Assembly (NCBI GenBank): GCA_030837965.1
Contig: JAUTXP010000044.1
Location: 1-64,000 of the forward strand
Source of the DNA: Acidimicrobiaceae bacterium
GTDB taxonomy: Bacteria; Actinomycetota; Acidimicrobiia; Acidimicrobiales; JAUTXP01
Length of the DNA stretch: 64,000 nt
Direction of reading: 5' to 3'
Shown here: positions 6,461-62,277 of the stretch, in pieces
How the letters are laid out: the number at the start of each line of letters is the position of its first letter
Numbering within the stretch: position 1 is the first letter of the stretch
Notes under the pieces: model-generated
The model's input: the letters and a program-made list of their open reading frames with translations, nothing else
The model's database searches: none
What the model was told of the DNA's origin: nothing
Position numbers and translations under genes: made by a program

Positions 6461-8086
6461 GTGCCCCAAGCGGCCGCTCAGGGAACGCCCCCCATTGTCG
6501 AACTGCCGTCCCTGTTCGCCCAGGCGGCTGCGGCCGTGCACGGCGAGCGTCGGCTCGACCGCGCCATCGAGTGGGTGTTGGACGCGGCTCGTCACGTCAC
6601 GGGCGCACGGGATGCGGCCGTCTGCCTGATCCGCGAGGACGGCGTGTTCCAGTGGCATCCGTCGCCGTCCGTCCTGCCCTCGGTCACTTCAGGCGACCCG
6701 CGCGACCAGCCTTTGCTGGCGCCCGTCATCCGCAGCGGCGCCGTCATGCAGTCCGGCGTGGGACACGGCGTCGTGGCCGTCCCGGTCACCGGAACGGACG
6801 ACTTGATCTGCGGCGTGCTGGTCTGCGCCGGCCCACTGACCCGGTCCGTCGACGCCGAGGCCGAGGACGCCCTCGTGGCCTTGGGCACCCACTTGGGCGT
6901 GGCCGTTTGCACCCACGCAACTCTGGCCCGCATGTCGGAGTTGGAGGAGGCTCAGCGCGACCTCGTGCACCAACTCCAAGTGGCGGTGCGGCCGCAGGTG
7001 ATCCAAGTGCCCGACACCGAACTGGGCGCCCACTACCTGGCCGCCGAAGAGGGCGTCCCGACCGGCGGCGACCTGTGGGACTGGGTGCTTCTTCCCTCGG
7101 GCGACCTGCACGTGGCCGTCATCGACATCATGGGCAAGGGGGTCAAGGCCACCAAGGACGCGCTGGCCGTGACCCACGCACTGCGGCTGCTGGTGCTGGA
7201 CGGGTGCCCCATGGAGCAGGTCGTGGCCCGGGCCGACCAGATCGTCACGCAGCAGAACCCCGACTTGGTCGCCACCCTCATCATCTGCCGCTACGACCCG
7301 TCCACCGGCAGGCTCCGGCTGGCGGGCGCGGGCCATCCGCCCGCCCTGCTCGTCCACGACGGCCAGGTCCGCCAGCTCGCGGCGGGAGGCATCCCCATCG
7401 GTTGGCCGGGGGCGGGCTCGACCGAGGTGGTGGAGGCCGAGCTGGGCCGTGCCGACAGCCTGGTGCTCTACACCGACGGGCTCATCGAGGGCACCAAGGA
7501 CATCATCGCCGGCCTCGAAGCGCTGGAGGAGACGGCGGCCCAGACGGCGGCCTTCCCTGCGTCCCAACAGGCGCGCATCCTGGTCGAGCGCTCGCTCGAA
7601 GGGGCGGCCCGCCGGGACGACTCACTCGCGCTCGTCTTGCGCAGGCGCCCGCCGCCCGACACCATGCCCCGGCACCGGCTCGGGCCGTTGTCGTATCGGC
7701 TCAGCCGCTCATTGGCCGGCGTGGGCCTGGCCCGCGACCTGCTGCGGGACTGGCTCGTGCGCGTCCCCGTGGAGCCCGACGCCGTGCCCGACCTGCTCCT
7801 GGTCGCGTCGGAGCTGTGCAGCAACGGGATCAAGCACGCCAGTTGGGAGGGCGAGGGGGCCACGCTGCGGGCCTGGGTTCGCGACGCCGACGTGCTCATC
7901 GAGGTGGAGGACGACGGCGCGGGCTTGTCGCTCCCCTATCTCGACGAGGAGCCGCCCGACCCGGACGCCGAGCGGGGCCGCGGGCTGTGGCTGGTCCACA
8001 CCCTCACCGACGAGCTGGTCCAGGTCGACAGCGAGACCACCAACATCGTGCGCTGCTGCAAGCGCAACGTGGTCGCCGCGTCCTAA
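6461..8086 (+). CDS. GAF-PP2C (SpoIIE)-HATPase partner-switching regulator
   Basis: 541 residues from a GTG. A GAF-like sensor spans about 15-155. A SpoIIE/RsbU-type PP2C phosphatase follows (about 190-390) with GGDLWDW, VIDIMGKG, AGHPPALLV and LYTDGLIEG motifs. A C-terminal HATPase_c domain (about 400-541) has the N-box ASELCSNGIKH and the G-box DDGAGLS with GRGLWLV. The phosphatase would dephosphorylate a STAS antagonist, and the kinase-like domain could bind or phosphorylate one. Having both activities in one chain is common in actinobacteria. A STAS protein is encoded at 18182; partnership is speculation. Confidence 0.85.
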   Translation: MPQAAAQGTPPIVELPSLFAQAAAAVHGERRLDRAIEWVLDAARHVTGARDAAVCLIREDGVFQWHPSPSVLPSVTSGDPRDQPLLAPVIRSGAVMQSGVGHGVVAVPVTGTDDLICGVLVCAGPLTRSVDAEAEDALVALGTHLGVAVCTHATLARMSELEEAQRDLVHQLQVAVRPQVIQVPDTELGAHYLAAEEGVPTGGDLWDWVLLPSGDLHVAVIDIMGKGVKATKDALAVTHALRLLVLDGCPMEQVVARADQIVTQQNPDLVATLIICRYDPSTGRLRLAGAGHPPALLVHDGQVRQLAAGGIPIGWPGAGSTEVVEAELGRADSLVLYTDGLIEGTKDIIAGLEALEETAAQTAAFPASQQARILVERSLEGAARRDDSLALVLRRRPPPDTMPRHRLGPLSYRLSRSLAGVGLARDLLRDWLVRVPVEPDAVPDLLLVASELCSNGIKHASWEGEGATLRAWVRDADVLIEVEDDGAGLSLPYLDEEPPDPDAERGRGLWLVHTLTDELVQVDSETTNIVRCCKRNVVAAS

Positions 8087-8123
8087 CCCGCGTCGCTACC
8101 CGCGCCGCCACGGCCCCGCCGTC

Positions 8124-8903
8124 TCAACGCGCCGCTTCCTGTACGGCGTCGGCTTCGGCCGCGCAGCCCAACTCGCTGTCGTCGGCCGGCGCGCCAAGGC
8201 ACAGCAGCGTGTACGCCATGCGCAGCACGGGCTGGGCCACGTTGCGCACATGCACGCCGCCGGGCGTCACGCCCTTCTCGCTGCCGCCGTGGGCGTGGCC
8301 GTGCACGGCCAGGTCGGCCCCCGCCCTGTCCACCGCCTCGGCCAGGAAGTAGCACCCGAGGAAGGGCCAGATCTCCAGCCGCTCCCCTCGCAACGTGCCC
8401 TCCACCGGTGAATAGTGCATGAGGGCGATGCAGGTGTCACAGTGCCGCACCTCGCGCAGCGCGGCCTCGAGCCCGTCGGCCACCGTTCGGCTGTGCCGCA
8501 TGAACGCCTTCATCTCGGGCTCGCCGAAGTCGCTCCCCATGGCCCCAGGGAACCCGCCGCCGAACCCCTTGGCCCCGGCCACGCCCACGGTCTGCCCGCC
8601 TACGTCGATCACGACGGACGTGCCTTCGAGGACGCGCACCCCCGCCTCGGCCAGGATGTCGACGACCTCCTTCTCCCTGTCCGACTCGTAGTCGTGATTG
8701 CCGAGCACGGCGACGACAGGGACGCGCAGGCCGCGCAACTCGTCGGCCAGCACGAGGGCCTCTTCGGGCAGGCCCCGCTTGGTCAAGTCGCCCGCCAAGA
8801 GGAAGAGGTCGGCCCGGTCGTCGAGGTGGGCCCAGTGCGGGCGCAGCGTGTCGTGCGAGTCGGTGCCCACGTGGACGTCGCCCACCGCGGCCACGCGGAT
8901 CAC
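8124..8903 (-). CDS. Calcineurin-like metallophosphoesterase
   Basis: 259 residues with all metallophosphoesterase blocks: GDVHVG at 8-13, AGDL near 38, GNHDY near 67, MHYSP near 158 and GHAHGG near 204. These supply the two-metal site for phosphate ester hydrolysis. No signal peptide is present, so it is cytoplasmic. The GTG start overlaps the stop of the BON-domain gene by four bases, implying one transcript and translational coupling. The substrate is unknown; the presence of GNHD and GHxH alone does not separate phosphodiesterase from phosphatase activity. Confidence 0.85.
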   Translation of the reverse strand: MIRVAAVGDVHVGTDSHDTLRPHWAHLDDRADLFLLAGDLTKRGLPEEALVLADELRGLRVPVVAVLGNHDYESDREKEVVDILAEAGVRVLEGTSVVIDVGGQTVGVAGAKGFGGGFPGAMGSDFGEPEMKAFMRHSRTVADGLEAALREVRHCDTCIALMHYSPVEGTLRGERLEIWPFLGCYFLAEAVDRAGADLAVHGHAHGGSEKGVTPGGVHVRNVAQPVLRMAYTLLCLGAPADDSELGCAAEADAVQEAAR

Positions 8904-9169
8904 GACAACGCCTCCATGTCGGACGGTTCGGGGAAGTCGGCGACGGTCGCCTGGTTGACCAGCGACCAGTCCGGCAACAGCTCGGCCACGATCTCGGCCA
9001 CCGCGGCGTGGCGCTCCTTGGTCGACACCGTTCCGTCCACGAAGATGCGGCGGCCATGGACGGTGACGTGCAGGCCCTGCTCGTTCACCCGCTCGTCGCA
9101 GGCCAACGCCTCTTCGAGATGGCCGACGATGTAGTCGACCGGCTCTTGTGGATCGAGCGCCTGTGCCAT
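8900..9169 (-). CDS. BON-domain protein
   Basis: 89 residues. The central part, LHVTVHGRRIFVDGTVSTKERHAAVAEIVAELL, is the BON pattern of a strand, Gly-turn, strand and helix, as in OsmY. No signal peptide is seen, so the protein appears cytoplasmic, unlike OsmY. BON domains are thought to bind phospholipid or other ligands. Its stop overlaps the start of the metallophosphoesterase gene, suggesting the two act together. Confidence 0.8.
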   Translation of the reverse strand: MAQALDPQEPVDYIVGHLEEALACDERVNEQGLHVTVHGRRIFVDGTVSTKERHAAVAEIVAELLPDWSLVNQATVADFPEPSDMEALS

Positions 9170-9180
9170 CGGTCGTGTCG

Positions 9181-9234
9181 CCGTCCTCGCTGTCGCCGTC
9201 CTCGCTGTCGCCGTCTCGCCGTCTCGCCGTCTCG
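9181..9234. repeat. Short tandem repeats between BON and nucleotidyltransferase genes
   Basis: Two copies of CCGTCCTCGCTGTCG (9181-9210) are followed by three copies of CCGTCTCG (9211-9234). They fill the gap just past the end of the minus-strand nucleotidyltransferase gene. Such runs are prone to slippage; no function is evident. Confidence 0.9.
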
Positions 9235-9239
9235 CCCCG

Positions 9240-9911
9240 TCAGGCCGTGGCCCGCAGGGCCTGCGGATCGTCGATCAGGGCGAACAGCTCGCGCACCGGC
9301 CCCCACGGCACGACCAGGTCGTTGGACTGCGCGTACAGCAGCAGCGACAGCACCCGGCGGACGCCCTTGCGGGCTCGGCGCACGAGGTAGTCCCAGTCCA
9401 GTTCGGCCACCGCGATCAAGGCGAGGGCGTCGTGCCAGTGGCGGGGCATGTGCTCGTTGTGGACCAAGGCCTTGATGACGATCAGGTCCTCGGCCGGGAC
9501 GATGCGAAGGTCCCTTCCCATGAACGGCGTGGTCGGGGCCCGGGCCAGCATCTCGTCGTCCAGGTAGATGTCACCGGTCGATCTGAAGATGAGGTCGACC
9601 ATCTGGTCGTGCTTGAAGCCCTTGTAGAGCCACTCGGCGTACGTCTCTTCGGTATCGAAGCCCGCCTGGCCCAGCGCCTCCAGGGCTTTGCGGGCCTCTT
9701 GCGGCCGCACGAACAGGTCGATGTCGTGGGTGAAGCGGGGCCTGCCTTGGCACGCCGACGCGATGCCGCCCATGAAGAGGTAGGGCACGTCCGCGCCCTC
9801 CAAGGCGGCCACGCTCTCGTCCAGCGCGGTGAGAAAGGCGACCTCGTCCCAGTCGTGGGTCTCGGCCCGCACCCTGCGTTCGTCCTCGGAGATGGGCTCG
9901 GTGGTGGCCAT
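9240..9911 (-). CDS. Nucleotidyltransferase-fold protein (AbiEii-like group)
   Basis: 223 residues from the ATG at 9911. The polymerase-beta signature is visible: MGGIASACQG at 47-56, then THDIDLFVRP at 61-70 with D63 and D65 as likely metal ligands, and a later acidic strand (DQMVDLIFRS). The C-terminal half is helical. Related proteins include AbiEii-type toxins and minor nucleotidyltransferases. Here no adjacent antitoxin or HEPN gene is present, so toxin function is only a possibility. A perfect 12-bp palindrome covers the region 6-34 bases upstream of its ATG, suggesting tight control. Confidence 0.7.
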   Translation of the reverse strand: MATTEPISEDERRVRAETHDWDEVAFLTALDESVAALEGADVPYLFMGGIASACQGRPRFTHDIDLFVRPQEARKALEALGQAGFDTEETYAEWLYKGFKHDQMVDLIFRSTGDIYLDDEMLARAPTTPFMGRDLRIVPAEDLIVIKALVHNEHMPRHWHDALALIAVAELDWDYLVRRARKGVRRVLSLLLYAQSNDLVVPWGPVRELFALIDDPQALRATA

Positions 9912-10828: not shown

Positions 10829-11983
10829 TCAGACCACGGCGTCCAATGCCGCGGCCAGGTCGGCCAGCAGGTCGTCCACCGTCTCGATGCCAACCGACAG
10901 CCGCACCAATGCAGGGCTGATCTCCAACGGCGAGCCCGCGGCCGACGCGTGGGTCATGGCCGCGGGGTGCTCGATGAGCGACTCCACCGCGCCCAGCGAC
11001 TCGGCCAACGTGAACACCTTGGTCCCCGCCGCCACCCGTCGGGCCGCCGTCTCGCCGCCCCGCAACGTGAACGACACCATGCCGCCAAAGCCGCGCATCT
11101 GCCGAGCCGCCACCTCGGACCGATCCGGGTAGTACACGTCCTCGACGGCGGGGTGCCCGCGCAACAGAGCGACCACGGCGGCCGCATTCCGACCGTGGCG
11201 ATCCATGCGCACGCCCAGCGTCTTCACGCCCCGCAGCACGAGGTAGCAGTCGAACGGTCCTGGCACCGCGCCCGCCGCGTTCTGGAAGAAGCGGAGGCGC
11301 TCGCCAATGGCGTCGTCGTTGGTGGCCGCGAACCCGCCGACCACATCCGAGTGCCCGCCGAGGTACTTCGTCGACGAATGGACGACGACGTCGGCGCCCA
11401 GGGCCAGCGGCGTCTGGAGATACGGCGTGGCGAAGGTGTTGTCGACCACGACGATGGCGCCCCGCTCGTGGGCCATGGCCGCGACGGCGGCGATGTCGAC
11501 CACGTCGAGCCTCGGATTGGTGGGCGTCTCCAACCACACCAGGCGCGTCTCGGGCTGCCACGCCTCGGCCACCGGCGCGGCCGTGTAGCGCAGATGGGTG
11601 TGCACCTTGTCGATCAGGCGAAAGGTCCCGCCGTATGCGTCGGTGGAAAGGACCACATGGTCGCCCGGCGCCAACAGCCGCAGCACCGCGTCCTCGGCGG
11701 CCAGCCCACTGGAGAAGGCCAGACCATGGGCCGCGCCTTCGAGCGACGCCACGCACGCCTCCAACGCGGAGCGAGTGGGGTTGCCCGACCGGGCGTACTC
11801 ATAGCCCTGATGCACACCGATGTCGGACTGGGCGAAGGTGGACGCCAGCACCACAGGCGGGACGACCGCGCCAGTCGCCGGGTCGGGTGCCTGCCCGGCG
11901 TGGATGGCCCGGGTCTCGAAGCCGAAGCCAGACCCGGACCCGGAACCGGCACCCGGACCGGACTCGGAATCAGGACCCGTCAT
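10829..11983 (-). CDS. Cystathionine gamma-lyase/gamma-synthase family PLP enzyme
   Basis: 384 residues. A Gly/Ser-rich N-terminal tail (GAGSGSGSGFGF) precedes the fold. Family marks are YEYARSGNPTR, AFSSGLAAEDA, WLETPTNPRLDV, VVVDNTFATPYLQ and the PLP lysine in HSSTKYLGGHSD. The family covers gamma-synthase, gamma-lyase and O-acetylhomoserine enzymes, which sequence alone does not separate. The ATGA overlap with the cystathionine beta-synthase gene argues for the gamma-lyase direction: cystathionine to cysteine plus 2-oxobutyrate. Confidence 0.85.
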   Translation of the reverse strand: MTGPDSESGPGAGSGSGSGFGFETRAIHAGQAPDPATGAVVPPVVLASTFAQSDIGVHQGYEYARSGNPTRSALEACVASLEGAAHGLAFSSGLAAEDAVLRLLAPGDHVVLSTDAYGGTFRLIDKVHTHLRYTAAPVAEAWQPETRLVWLETPTNPRLDVVDIAAVAAMAHERGAIVVVDNTFATPYLQTPLALGADVVVHSSTKYLGGHSDVVGGFAATNDDAIGERLRFFQNAAGAVPGPFDCYLVLRGVKTLGVRMDRHGRNAAAVVALLRGHPAVEDVYYPDRSEVAARQMRGFGGMVSFTLRGGETAARRVAAGTKVFTLAESLGAVESLIEHPAAMTHASAAGSPLEISPALVRLSVGIETVDDLLADLAAALDAVV

Positions 11984-13581
11984 CGCCGGGTCAGGAAGTC
12001 GAGCAGGTCCGACCTGGTCACGATCCCCACCGGGTGCCCGCTGTCCAGCACCAGCACGGCCGACGCCGTCTCCAACGCCTCGACCGCGCTCTCCAACGAC
12101 TCGCCGCTGCCGACCGACGGCAAGGGCGAGGCCATGACCTCGCCCACGGGCCGGTCGAGCACGGTCGTGTCGGCGAAGGCCTTGTCCAACAGGTCCCGCT
12201 CGCTGATGGACCCGACCACCTCGGCCGCGGCAAGGGGCGGCTCGGCCTTCACCACCGGAACCTGCGACACCTCGTACTCGCGCAGCACCCCGATCACGTC
12301 GCGCCCCAACTCGTCCGGATGCACATGGACCAACGGCGGCAAGGCCGTCCCCTTGCGGGCCAGCACATCCGCCACCGTCGGACCCGCGGCCCGCAGGAAG
12401 CCGAAGTCGGCCATCCAACCGTCGTTGTAGAGCTTGGACAGATAGCCACGGCCCGAGTCGGGGATGAGCACCACGACCACGTCGTCCGGACCCAGTTCGG
12501 CGCCCACATGCACGGCAGCCCACACCGCGGTGCCCGCCGATCCGCCCACGAGGATGCCCTCTTCCCGCGTCACCGTCCGCGCCGTGAGGAATGAGTCGCG
12601 GTCGCTGACCATCACCACCCGGTCCACGACCGAAGGGTCATACGTGGTGGGCCAGAAGTCCTCGCCGATGCCCTCCACCAGATAGGGCCTGCCCGTGCCG
12701 CCCGAGTACACCGATCCTGCGGGGTCGGCCCCCACGATCTGCACGGCGCCGTCGGACAACGACTTGAGCGAGCGGCCCACGCCGGTGATGGTCCCGCCCG
12801 TGCCGATGCCGGCGACGAAGTGGGTGATGCGGCCCGCCGTCTGGCGCCAGATCTCGGGCCCGGTCGACGCCACGTGGGAGGCCGGGTTGGCCGGGTTGTG
12901 GTACTGGTCGGGCTGGAACCCGCCGGGGATCTCGGAGGCGAGGCGGGCGGCCACCGAGTAGTAGGAGTCGGGGTGCTCGGGCGCCACCGCTGAAGGGCAC
13001 ACCAAGACCTCGGCCCCATAGGCCCGCAGCAGCGCGATCTTCTCGCTGCTCATCTTGTCGGGCATGACGAACACGCAGCGGTAGCGGCGGCGGGCGGCGA
13101 CGATGGCCAGCCCCACGCCCGTGTTGCCCGACGTGGGCTCGACGATGGTGCCGCCCGGCTGCAGGCGCCCGTCACGCTCGGCCGCCTCGATCATGGCCAC
13201 CGCGGGCCTGTCCTTCACCGAGCCGCCCGCGTTCAAGAACTCGAGCTTGGCCAAGAGGTGGCACGACAGGTTGCGGGCCATGCGGTCGAGTCGGACCATC
13301 GGCGTGTTGCCCACCAGGTCGAGCAGGGAGTCGGCCGCATCCATGGGCGCGCCCGCATCGTCGTGCACCACCCGGACAGGGAAGCCGTGTTGATGGAGGC
13401 GGGCCGACACGCCGTCGGCGCCATCGCCGTACACGCCGACCATGCGGGGGATGTGGGTGCGGATGTGGGCCACCAGGTCGGGGTCGCCGTCCCCGTCGGC
13501 CCGGGTCCGCAGCACATGACCCGCCCGCTCCCGCAGCCAGCCGGGCGGCTCGGCGTCGCCCACCACCACAAGGACGTCCAC
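11980..13581 (-). CDS. cbs: Cystathionine beta-synthase with CBS pair and N-terminal extension
   Basis: 533 residues from 13581. Residues 84-385 are the PLP fold II core: SLLDLVGNTPMVRLD, PLP lysine K123 in AGGSVKDRP, PTSGNTGVGLA and GIGTGGTITGVG. Residues about 400-533 hold two CBS motifs (VIGVLREYEVSQVPVV and the terminal VGIVTRSDLLDFL), a place for regulatory ligands. The first 79 residues (MDVLVVVGDAEPPGW onward) are an extension with strand-helix character; an ATG at 13344 would give the standard start. It condenses serine with homocysteine. It is co-transcribed with the gamma-lyase, and only 27 bases separate it from the divergent amidohydrolase. Confidence 0.88.
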   Translation of the reverse strand: MDVLVVVGDAEPPGWLRERAGHVLRTRADGDGDPDLVAHIRTHIPRMVGVYGDGADGVSARLHQHGFPVRVVHDDAGAPMDAADSLLDLVGNTPMVRLDRMARNLSCHLLAKLEFLNAGGSVKDRPAVAMIEAAERDGRLQPGGTIVEPTSGNTGVGLAIVAARRRYRCVFVMPDKMSSEKIALLRAYGAEVLVCPSAVAPEHPDSYYSVAARLASEIPGGFQPDQYHNPANPASHVASTGPEIWRQTAGRITHFVAGIGTGGTITGVGRSLKSLSDGAVQIVGADPAGSVYSGGTGRPYLVEGIGEDFWPTTYDPSVVDRVVMVSDRDSFLTARTVTREEGILVGGSAGTAVWAAVHVGAELGPDDVVVVLIPDSGRGYLSKLYNDGWMADFGFLRAAGPTVADVLARKGTALPPLVHVHPDELGRDVIGVLREYEVSQVPVVKAEPPLAAAEVVGSISERDLLDKAFADTTVLDRPVGEVMASPLPSVGSGESLESAVEALETASAVLVLDSGHPVGIVTRSDLLDFLTRR

Positions 13582-58776: not shown

Positions 58777-60465
58777 GTGGGGATGATGTCGCTCGCCGAA
58801 GCCACCGCCGTCCTGACCGCGCCGGGCCAGCACTTCGAGATGGAGGAGCTGGACATCCGGGGCGTGCCCACCCGCGTGTGGAAGAACGCGCCGCCCACGC
58901 TGCGCCACATCCTCGAGGCCAGCCGCAAGCACGACGACGCCCTGTTCCTCGTCTACGAGGACGAGCGCACGTCGTTCGAGGACCACTTCCGCGCCGCCGC
59001 CACGGTGGCCACCGCGCTGGTCGAACGGCTGGGCGTGGCCAAGGGCGACCGGGTGGCCATCGCCATGCGCAACTTCCCCGAATGGGCCATCGCCTTTTGG
59101 GCCGCGGCCGCCGCGGGCGCAGTGGTGGTCCCCCTCAACGCCTGGTGGGCGGGGGCGGAACTCGCCTATGCACTCGACGACTGCGGGGCCGAGGTGCTGT
59201 TCGCCGACCAGGAACGGGTGGCCCGACTGGACGAGCACTGGTCCGACCTGCCCGGCTTGAAGCACGTCGTAGTGGCCCGCAGTCGAGTCACCAGCGAGCA
59301 CATCCCCTTCACCGACCTGCTGCGCGACGAGTCGTCCAAGGCCCCGCTGCCCGACGTCTCGATCGACCCCGAGGACGACGCCACCATCTTCTACACGTCC
59401 GGCACCACGGGCAGGCCCAAGGGCGCGGTGGGCACCCACCGCAACATCTGCACCAACCAACTGAGCCTGGCCTTCGTCAACGCCCGAAACGCGGTGCGGG
59501 TCCAGGGCCAGGCGGGCCCGCCGGGCCGCAGCGGGCAGAACGCCTACCTCCTGTCCGTCCCCTTCTTCCACGCCACCGGCTGCCACTCGGTGCTGGTGGC
59601 CAACACGCTGTACGGCGGCAAGCTCGTCATCATGCACAAGTGGGACGCGGGCCGGGCCTTGGAGCTGATCGAGCGCGAGCGGGTCACCACCTTCGGCGGC
59701 GTACCCGCCATGGTCATGCAGGTGCTCGACCATCCCGACTTCGCCACGCGCGACCTGTCGAGCGTCAAGAGCGTGGGCTACGGCGGCGCGCCTGCCCCGC
59801 CCGACCTGGTGCGCAGGATCAAGGAGCACTTCCCCACCGGCAGCCCGTCGAACGGCTACGGCCTGACCGAGACCAGTTCGGTCACCACCATGAACGCGGG
59901 CGACGACTACGTGCGCAAGCCCGACAGCGTGGGCCCGCCCGTGCCCGTGTGCGACGTGCGCATCGTCGGAGACGACGGGTCCGACGCGGCCATGGGCGAG
60001 GTGGGTGAGCTGTGGATCAAAGGCCCGAATGTGGTCCGGGGCTACTGGAACAAGCCCGACGCAACCGCGGCCGCCTTCACCGAGGGATGGCTGCACTCGG
60101 GCGACGTGGCCCGCATCGACGACGAGGGCTTCGTGTACATCGTGGACCGGGCCAAGGACATGGTCATCAGGGGCGGCGAGAATGTCCACTGCGTGGAGGT
60201 GGAGGCGGCCCTGCACGAGCACCCGGCGGTCAGCGACGCGGCAGTGATCGGCGTGCCCCACGACGTGCTCGGCGAGGAGGTGGGCGCCGTCGTGCAGGTT
60301 CGTCCCGGCCACCAGGTCACCGAGCAAGACCTGCAATCGTTCGTGGGCGAACGATTGGCCGCGTTCAAGGTCCCGGTGCGCATCTGGTTTCGCGACCAGC
60401 CCCTCCCCCGCAACCCGGCAGGCAAGATCCTCAAGCGCGAGCTGCGGGAGGAACTGGTGGGGTGA
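58777..60465 (+). CDS. Acyl-CoA synthetase (AMP-dependent ligase)
   Basis: 562 residues from a GTG (ATGs follow at 58783 and 58786). Core motifs: P-loop FYTSGTTGRPKGAV, NGYGLTETSSV, WLHSGDVARIDDEGFVYIVDRAKD and the catalytic Lys in GKILKRELREEL. It activates a fatty or other carboxylic acid to its adenylate and then CoA ester. Chain-length preference cannot be read. It is followed within 8 bases by the coiled-coil gene. Confidence 0.92.
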   Translation: MGMMSLAEATAVLTAPGQHFEMEELDIRGVPTRVWKNAPPTLRHILEASRKHDDALFLVYEDERTSFEDHFRAAATVATALVERLGVAKGDRVAIAMRNFPEWAIAFWAAAAAGAVVVPLNAWWAGAELAYALDDCGAEVLFADQERVARLDEHWSDLPGLKHVVVARSRVTSEHIPFTDLLRDESSKAPLPDVSIDPEDDATIFYTSGTTGRPKGAVGTHRNICTNQLSLAFVNARNAVRVQGQAGPPGRSGQNAYLLSVPFFHATGCHSVLVANTLYGGKLVIMHKWDAGRALELIERERVTTFGGVPAMVMQVLDHPDFATRDLSSVKSVGYGGAPAPPDLVRRIKEHFPTGSPSNGYGLTETSSVTTMNAGDDYVRKPDSVGPPVPVCDVRIVGDDGSDAAMGEVGELWIKGPNVVRGYWNKPDATAAAFTEGWLHSGDVARIDDEGFVYIVDRAKDMVIRGGENVHCVEVEAALHEHPAVSDAAVIGVPHDVLGEEVGAVVQVRPGHQVTEQDLQSFVGERLAAFKVPVRIWFRDQPLPRNPAGKILKRELREELVG

Positions 60466-60472
60466 AGGGGCG

Positions 60473-61183
60473 GTGGCGGTGAACGTCGAGGACCTCTACG
60501 GCCTGCCTCTCGCCGAGTTCGTGAGGGAGCGCAACGCGCTGGCCAAGTCGTCGGGCGACAAGGACGTGGCCAAGCTCAAGAAGCCGTCGAGCGCGGCGTG
60601 GGCCTTGAACCAGGCGGCTCGCACCAACAAAGGCGATGTGGCCCGCTTCCTGCATGCCGCGGGCCGCGTGCGCGCCGGAGGCGACCGCTCGGTCATGGCC
60701 GAGCTGCGTACCGCGGAGGCGGACGTGCGCAGGGCCGCGCTGCACGCGCTGGGTGCGTCGGGCGACGCCCAACTGGCTGCCGTGAACGCGCTGCTGGCTG
60801 CGGCCGCCGTCGACGAGAGCGTGGGCCAGGTCTTGGCCGCGGGCACGCTGGACGGCTCCGAGGAGGCGGAGGCGAGCGGCTTCGTCGGCGCGGTCAGTGG
60901 AGGCGGCAGCAGCGGAGGCGGCGGCGGTGGCGGCAAGTCGTCCGCTTCCGACCGCAAGCCCAAGCGGGACGAGGTGCGCGAGGCGCGCGAGCGCAAGGTC
61001 AGGGAGCAGGCTCGCAAGAAGCGGGAGGCGGCCGAGGCCGCGTGCAAGGAGGCCGAGGAGGAGGCCGAACGCCTGGAGCGGGAGGCGGACGAGGCCGAGG
61101 AGAAGGCTGATCGGGCCAGACGCCGGGCTGACGCGGCCAGAGAGAAGGCCGAGGCCCTGCGGGTTGCACTGGACGTCGAGTGA
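60473..61183 (+). CDS. Coiled-coil protein, function unknown
   Basis: 236 residues. The N-terminal 150 residues are helical (VEDLYGLPLAEFVRERNALAKSSGDKDVAKLKKPSSAAWALNQAAR) and recognisable as a conserved actinobacterial domain of unknown role. A Gly/Ser linker (GGGSSGGGGGGGKSS) leads to a charged coiled coil of about 70 residues rich in Glu, Arg and Ala. The stop overlaps the GTG of the LigD-like gene by four bases, suggesting a shared function in DNA metabolism. Confidence 0.65.
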   Translation: MAVNVEDLYGLPLAEFVRERNALAKSSGDKDVAKLKKPSSAAWALNQAARTNKGDVARFLHAAGRVRAGGDRSVMAELRTAEADVRRAALHALGASGDAQLAAVNALLAAAAVDESVGQVLAAGTLDGSEEAEASGFVGAVSGGGSSGGGGGGGKSSASDRKPKRDEVREARERKVREQARKKREAAEAACKEAEEEAERLEREADEAEEKADRARRRADAAREKAEALRVALDVE

Positions 61184-62277
61184 GTCCGAAGCGCAGCGAT
61201 GGGAACGCAGAAGAGCGACTCGAGCGATACCGGTCGATGCGCGACTTCCAGCGCACGGCCGAGCCCGCGGGAGCAGAGCGCACCGAGGCCCGGGGCGACC
61301 GCTTCGTCGTGCAGGAGCACCACGCCACCGCACTGCATTGGGACTTCCGACTCGAACGCGATGGCGTGCTCGTCTCGTGGGCCGTGCCCAAGGGCCTCCC
61401 GCCCCATCCGGCCCAGAACCACTTGGCCGTGCACACCGAGGACCACCCCCTTGACTACATCGACTTCGAGGGCGAGATCCCCGAAGGCGAGTACGGCGGA
61501 GGGCAGGTCATGTTGTGGGACCAAGGCACCTACGAATGCGAGAAGTTCAACGAGCGCGAGGTCATCGTCGTGCTTCACGGCCGCCGGGCGCGAGGCCGTT
61601 ACGTGCTCGTGAAGACGGGCGGCAAGAACTGGCTCATGCACCGCATGGACCCGCCCGACGACCCCACCCGCGAGCCCATGCCCAGCGGCCTGTCGCCCAT
61701 GCTGCCCACAACCCGCAAGACACTGCCCGAGTGCGACTCCGAGTCCGAGTCCAAGTCCGAGTCGGACTGGTTGTTCGAGCCCGCATGGGGCGGCGAGCGC
61801 GTCCTCTTGGCGTGCGAAGGAGGGCGGGTTGTGCTGACCGCGGCGGACGGAGCCGACGTGACGGAGCGCTTCCCCGAGTTCAGGGCCCTCGGTCGGGCCC
61901 TGGGCTCGCTGGCCTTGATCCTCGATGGCGAGGTCGTGGTGCTGGACGGCACCGGTCGGCCTGACCCTGCCTTGCTCGCCCGGCGTAAGGCCAGGCCCGA
62001 GCAGCCCGCCGTCTTCTTCGCCTCGGACCTGGTCTGGCTGGACGGGCATCCCGCCGTGGGCCTCCCCGCTTCCGACCGCAGGACCCTGTTGGCCAAGCTC
62101 GACTTCGGCGGCCCAACGTGGCGCACCAACCCAACGTCGGACGGGCAGGCCCTCCTGGCCGCAGCCGGGCAGCAAGGGCTTCCCGGCGTCTACGGTCGGT
62201 CGGCCGCCAGCGCATACGAACCGGGGCAAACCAGCCCAGAGTTCGTGTTCGTCCCTGTGCCCGCCAAGGATCGGTAG
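61180..62277 (+). CDS. LigD-type 3'-phosphoesterase fused to a degenerate ligase domain
   Basis: 365 residues. The phosphoesterase half (about 40-170) has QEHHATALHWDFRLERDG, with likely catalytic H48, H53, D55 and R57, then AVHTEDHPLDY and EGEYGGGQVMLWD. After a SESESKSES linker, residues 195-330 resemble the start of an ATP-dependent ligase, but motif I reads EPAWGGERV instead of EPKWDGxR: the AMP-accepting Lys is Ala202. ILDGEVVVLD (motif III) remains. It would clean 3' ends in end joining; the ligase part should be inactive. Ku and an active LigD are not in the window. Confidence 0.82.
   Translation: MSPKRSDGNAEERLERYRSMRDFQRTAEPAGAERTEARGDRFVVQEHHATALHWDFRLERDGVLVSWAVPKGLPPHPAQNHLAVHTEDHPLDYIDFEGEIPEGEYGGGQVMLWDQGTYECEKFNEREVIVVLHGRRARGRYVLVKTGGKNWLMHRMDPPDDPTREPMPSGLSPMLPTTRKTLPECDSESESKSESDWLFEPAWGGERVLLACEGGRVVLTAADGADVTERFPEFRALGRALGSLALILDGEVVVLDGTGRPDPALLARRKARPEQPAVFFASDLVWLDGHPAVGLPASDRRTLLAKLDFGGPTWRTNPTSDGQALLAAAGQQGLPGVYGRSAASAYEPGQTSPEFVFVPVPAKDR

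Follow-up and report, generated by a model that had tools for sequence, protein, structure and literature searches.

The gene at 61180-62277 of the window, by which we mean the whole 64,000-nucleotide stretch of DNA analyzed here, is a real and conserved variant of the LigD PE-LIG module, in which an intact phosphoesterase (PE) domain is fused to a ligase (LIG) domain that is, on well-supported grounds, catalytically dead yet retained. We lean towards a role of its product as a 3'-end-processing protein of NHEJ, with the pseudo-ligase serving as a docking module and sealing being performed in trans by a separate LIG. The features of this gene (PE-pseudoligase) and of its upstream neighbor, encoding a helical or coiled-coil protein (cc), are as follows.

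60473..61183, + strand: cc protein, 236 aa, with a helical head (residues 5-142) and a charged C-terminal helix (residues 162-235)
61180-61183, + strand: 4-base overlap (GTGA) of the cc stop and the PE-pseudoligase start
61180..62277, + strand: PE-pseudoligase gene, GTG start, 365 aa; PE fused to a dead ligase nucleotidyltransferase core, no OB
61300..61647, + strand: PE domain, residues 41-156, from the Pfam match, active-site residues and fold match to 3p4h and 3n9b
61762..62256, + strand: pseudo-ligase, nucleotidyltransferase core, residues 195-359, from Pfam, alignment and fold match to 6nhx; it ends after motif V
61783..61791, + strand: degenerate motif I (A202, W203, G204), aligned to Lys481 and Asp483 of M. 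tuberculosis LigD (MtLigD)
61921..61932, + strand: kept motif III (LDGE, residues 248-251), from alignment
62182..62184, + strand: motif IV Glu613 replaced by Pro335, from alignment
62248..62256, + strand: motif V KxK replaced by F357-V-P359, from alignment; the protein ends shortly after and OB is absent

That this ORF encodes a LigD phosphoesterase with intact active-site residues, fused to a ligase domain, had been proposed in an earlier note and was confirmed by Pfam and NCBIfam. PF13298 scored 139.8 bits (cut-off 31.1) over residues 45-145, and TIGR02777 (LigD 3'-phosphoesterase) scored 184.3 bits against a cut-off of 144. All the PE active-site residues were found (Q45, H47, H53, D55, R57, K71, E87, H89 and Y93), and each member of the catalytic set of P. 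aeruginosa LigD (PaeLigD; H42, H48, D50, R52, H84 and Y88) is matched in the alignment. The ligase core was recognized by PF01068 (39.4 bits over residues 192-351, with a loose cut-off of 26.2), and the score with TIGR02779 (NHEJ ATP-dependent LIG), 92.1 bits, is under the cut-off of 227.75. Judged from its sequence, the window protein belongs to the PE family on all the tests made and lies outside the active ligase family.

The losses in the ligase half are extensive. Motif I reads 199-FEPAWGGER-207, with Ala202 and Gly204 at the positions of Lys481 and Asp483 of MtLigD, as the earlier note had read it (PDB chain 6nhx, present in this alignment, is itself K481M). The alignment to MtLigD also places Ala222 at Arg501 and Phe357/Pro359 at Lys635/Lys637; K481, R501, E613, K635 and K637 are ligase active-site residues of MtLigD according to PMC8656161. 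Motif III persists, as had been noted, with its acidic residue E251. The earlier note had allowed for an intact Lys elsewhere in the domain, but none of the aligned catalytic positions carries a Lys. The window protein has no OB domain, the ORF stopping just past motif V and the next gene starting from 62315. The earlier note missed the losses in motifs IV and V and of OB, and also a separate, intact LIG-Ku-POL operon described below. A frameshift, assembly or sequencing error hiding the Lys or OB was ruled out, since 40 other proteins are without the same Lys and share the same end point.

These proteins came from a comparison of 89 relatives, drawn from 99 genomes of the same order and from a scan of genome contigs. 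In the alignment they split into two types, with no intermediates for the Lys-OB pair: 48 have K481 and an OB-length tail (live type), and 41 are without the Lys and stop directly behind motif V. Every live relative has at least about 115 aa past motif V, and no Lys-less protein has more than about 10. The live type, with its intact KxDG, also keeps K635. K481, R501 and E613 are present in all 48 live proteins, versus 0, 1 and 0 of the 41 Lys-less proteins, respectively, and K637 is present in 47/48 versus 2/41. At the E613 position, 34/41 Lys-less proteins have Pro; at the Lys481 position they have Ala (33), Gly (4), Asp (2), Arg (1) or Trp (1). The motif III Glu is kept in 36/41. The PE site of the Lys-less proteins is essentially complete, Q40, H42, D50, R52, E82, H84 and Y88 (PaeLigD numbering) being found in 41/41 and H48 in 40/41. 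The copy from Actinomadura nitritigenes (L135, 5968-7038) has Arg in place of the active-site His corresponding to H48, and its PE is possibly impaired too for that reason.

The Lys-less set includes 10 proteins from the sample of the window's order, 24 from Actinomadura, and others from Cellulomonas sp. Leaf334, a Geodermatophilaceae MAG and Acidimicrobiia MAGs. The same type was found beyond the 41 in Nonomuraea gerenzanensis and in a genome of the window's order (G238, locus L180). When the phylum was sampled evenly (246 genomes), a PE-ligase match was obtained in 70, and among the best 30 of these only the window and L180 proteins end without OB, although the simple pattern used left motif I or the tail unread in some others; the Lys-less type is therefore uncommon but recurrent. 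On trees built without the motif columns, the Lys-less proteins require 3-4 changes, and the hypothesis of a single Lys-less clade is at the edge of rejection (AU p = 0.0498). The trees suggest that they may form more than one clade, and the shared AWGG and E613 to Pro change may stem from a single old origin, from transfer or from convergence. PE-LIG proteins of Chloroflexota and Dormibacterota (L061-L093), with ~50% identity to the window protein, are nested among the actinobacterial ones, and this nesting may reflect transfer between phyla.

Conservation, selection and predicted structure all agree with the claim of the earlier note that a dead ligase fold is retained. The live type has 53 invariant positions in its ligase core. 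In a thinned Lys-less set, the six catalytic ones among them were kept at 4% on average, versus a mean retention of 75% for the 42 that belong to neither the catalytic nor the adenosine-contact set. By the Nei-Gojobori method, a simple one applied here to high-G+C DNA, dN/dS among 24 Actinomadura was 0.27 for the pseudo-ligase and 0.19 for PE, and among live Chloroflexota PE-LIG proteins it was 0.17 for LIG and 0.11 for PE. The LIG:PE ratio of dN/dS is about equal in the dead and live proteins, so the ligase half is about equally constrained relative to PE; the pseudo-ligase is clearly under purifying selection in Actinomadura. The AlphaFold2 model of the window protein has two confident domains (pLDDT 88.7, pTM 0.84), with confidence >90 across most of the pseudo-ligase. 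In Foldseek searches, the ligase half of the model matched 6nhx (LigD LIG) with an rmsd of 2.3 A over 191 columns, and the PE half matched 3p4h (TMt 0.94) and also 3n9b.

This evidence makes it unlikely that the ligase half is a decaying remnant, a leftover drifting away from a protein in which PE alone matters. The domain is found in 41 proteins of several families with its fold-specific residues and the retention given above, one common truncation point is used throughout, and both the dN/dS of 0.27 in Actinomadura and the model confidence over most of the domain speak against drift. A remnant would fit the disappearance of catalysis and OB, however, as well as the state of the window copy, which is further degenerate around motif IV (PGVYGRSAASAY) and sits on a long branch (0.58-0.64); the L014 and L127 proteins diverge even more.

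The retained fold could also be a nucleotide sensor that regulates PE or a partner LIG, through a pocket still able to bind ATP/AMP or an end that is adenylated or carries a ribonucleotide. Five MtLigD residues for which adenine/ribose contacts are reported in PMC8656161 (E479, W482, R486, E530 and K618) are kept at 75-95% in the thinned Lys-less set, with the phosphate/metal residues lost, as such a sensor would predict. Their mean of 86%, however, is not clearly above the 75% of the other live-invariant positions and is perhaps fold-driven, and Arg replaces K618 in the window copy. A special conservation of the adenosine pocket was rejected for this lack of a clear excess over other positions, and we regard a sensor as improbable. 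The least probable of the alternatives weighed is a second activity independent of the ligase site, for example, a 5'-dRP lyase as in B. subtilis LigD, whose mutants K24A, K189A, K206A, K208A and E184A retain this activity according to PMC4770248.

The genomic setting bears on how an end-processing protein with a docking module would act. The window genome has one PE (the window gene) and one Ku, and its NHEJ gene set is present, with LIG, Ku and POL in one operon on a contig other than that of the PE-pseudoligase. In a second genome, Ku and the PE-pseudoligase are themselves adjacent.

7139-8125 of contig C24 (G000), - strand: LIG, motifs intact
6237-7133 of contig C24 (G000), - strand: Ku, in the row LIG-Ku-POL
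5332-6237 of contig C24 (G000), - strand: POL, in the same row
6753-9670, locus L048 (G017:C263): Ku (stop 8610) and PE-pseudoligase (start 8612), adjacent, one operon

Ku was found in all 31 genomes reached via named loci outside the order sample, 30 of them with the Lys-less type, and each of the 31 also has a LigD-type LIG scoring at least 203 bits. The 17 dedicated LIGs that were aligned, 16 of them from Lys-less genomes, all retain Lys in motif I and Glu in motif IV, and their tails are of OB length. In the order sample, 8/10 Lys-less genomes have Ku; it was not detected in G009 (70% complete) and G054 (86% complete), and in G029 no separate LIG was above the cut-off. Redundancy with a second LIG is insufficient by itself to explain the ligase loss, because the order genomes with an intact PE-LIG (G027, G048 and G077) have a separate LIG too. 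In most genomes the PE-pseudoligase is located away from Ku. Its conserved neighbors in Actinomadura (L096, 4052-7903) are genes for an M24 peptidase, a helix-hairpin-helix protein and a YdjM-like membrane protein, with no Ku nearby.

The reading that we favor, an end-processing protein docked by its pseudo-ligase, draws on the intact PE residues, the loss of the catalytic residues and OB, the retained predicted fold, the purifying selection in Actinomadura and the co-occurrence of Ku and an intact LIG. The PE domain would remove 3'-ribonucleotides and 3'-phosphates at breaks. The pseudo-ligase, probably a conserved pseudoenzyme, would have lost both AMP uptake and nick sealing and would bring PE to Ku-bound ends, most likely via the Ku-binding surface of live LigD ligase domains, and ligation would then be done in trans by the separate intact LIG encoded beside Ku. 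The protein presumably descends from a PE-LIG fusion, from which the OB clamp and the six catalytic residues were lost as a set. The DNA-end-binding or scaffold role suggested in the earlier note is plausible on sequence grounds, and Ku docking is its likelier version because direct binding of the Ku core to the LigD ligase domain is published (PMC9638933); PMC13201618 infers a Ku-ligase-domain interaction for B. subtilis too. The same binding of live LIG domains to Ku (PMC9638933) would also suit a regulator, the ligase half acting on Ku or on the partner LIG, for instance, through competition for ends or Ku until PE is done, and an intact LIG is always found alongside where LIG was read. The missing OB clamp, though, should weaken DNA binding, and we find such a regulator very improbable.

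The window protein shares with the LigD PE-LIG module and with three-domain LigD (M. tuberculosis POL-PE-LIG; P. aeruginosa) the PE-then-LIG order, the PE residues and the nucleotidyltransferase fold, and its best NCBIfam match is PRK09632, a mycobacterial LigD-type model (361.8 bits over residues 8-355). Unlike LigD, it is without the AMP-accepting Lys, the motif IV Glu, the motif V Lys, OB and POL, and its scores are under the LigD and LIG cut-offs. The stand-alone archaeal and bacterial LigD PE proteins (3p4h, 3p43 and 5dmp) have the same PE fold and residues but consist of the PE domain alone, whereas the window protein adds a 165-residue dead ligase core. In the split NHEJ sets of Streptomyces, as described in PMC5124664, LIG, POL and Ku are on separate genes, as here; S. 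ambofaciens is without a PE-like gene, whereas here PE is present and fused to the pseudo-ligase. Vertebrate DNA ligase IV, given a structural, non-sealing role in end synapsis in PMC10858965, offers a functional analogy only, that of a ligase fold binding ends; Lig4 is an active ligase with OB and has no homology to the pseudo-ligase beyond the ligase fold. A literature search of titles and abstracts, with partial coverage of full texts, returned no description of the PE-pseudoligase or of the cc family.

The cc family is not covered by any Pfam model, and sequence searches of NCBIfam and the PDB gave no meaningful match. The AlphaFold2 model of the window's cc is an all-helical head with a 74-residue charged helix (pLDDT 90, pTM 0.60), and a PDB structure search returned no solved structure resembling it (best E 1.8). 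Homology to XRCC4/XLF was rejected on these grounds, the model being all-helical and without a PDB match of E below 1.8. The C-terminal helix has a high content of Glu, Ala, Arg and Lys, and opposite charges are spaced i/i+4, so that it may be a single alpha-helix instead of a coiled coil.

The 4-base GTGA overlap makes translational coupling of cc to the PE-pseudoligase plausible, and the earlier note had taken it as a hint of a two-protein repair complex. This idea has gained partial support: the cc family directly adjoins Ku in five genomes besides the window's, from four families, which with the window makes six genomes in five families, and in one of the five PE is there as well. The direct cc-PE coupling, however, was seen in the window only, and cc is unlinked in most genomes (18/21 cc genomes of the order sample); cc as a fixed PE partner was thus rejected. 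Ku is followed by cc on one strand in G138 (L229) and G179 (L224), which belong to one genus, and in G180 (L202), and the two genes are divergent in G046 (L198) and G017 (L048). In G017 the cc and Ku start codons are 16 bases apart and Ku then runs directly into the PE-pseudoligase; no tighter NHEJ linkage of the two window genes was found.

Overall, the cc family is present in 21/99 order genomes and 56/246 phylum genomes. By counts uncorrected for phylogeny, it is found in 9/10 Lys-less order genomes versus 12/89 others and, in the phylum sample, in 41/70 genomes with a strong PE-ligase profile match versus 15/176 others. Its co-occurrence with Ku, likewise uncorrected, has a raw Fisher p of 7e-5 and is partly due to genome size, as p is 0.066 among genomes of at least 3 Mb; with phylogeny also uncontrolled, it was rejected as proof. 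The adjacency of cc and Ku is stronger evidence than these counts. It is possible, if doubtful, that cc is an undescribed NHEJ factor of Actinomycetota acting with Ku and the PE-pseudoligase, a functional counterpart of XRCC4/XLF with an unrelated fold, and that they jointly make up a complex for holding and cleaning ends, which would then pass to the separate ligase. Bacterial NHEJ is usually pictured as two proteins, Ku and LigD, and a recurrent Ku neighbor such as cc may point to a further, unnamed NHEJ protein in Actinomycetota; among the leads, this helical family linked to Ku is the most novel. The results suggest that in several soil-type bacterial groups a dead ligase plays a structural part in the repair of breaks, alongside an undescribed helical protein.

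The gene upstream of cc in the window (58777-60465) encodes an acyl-CoA synthetase with 72% identity to a G037 synthetase whose gene immediately precedes the PE-pseudoligase, with no cc between the two, a case of local synteny without cc. A general linkage to this synthetase was dropped, as the arrangement was shared with G037 only. On the contig of the LIG-Ku-POL operon (L036, G000:C24), the ORF at 11492-13105 is subtilase-like, and its C-terminus consists of ~13 WSATR/WSGTR repeats in a run.
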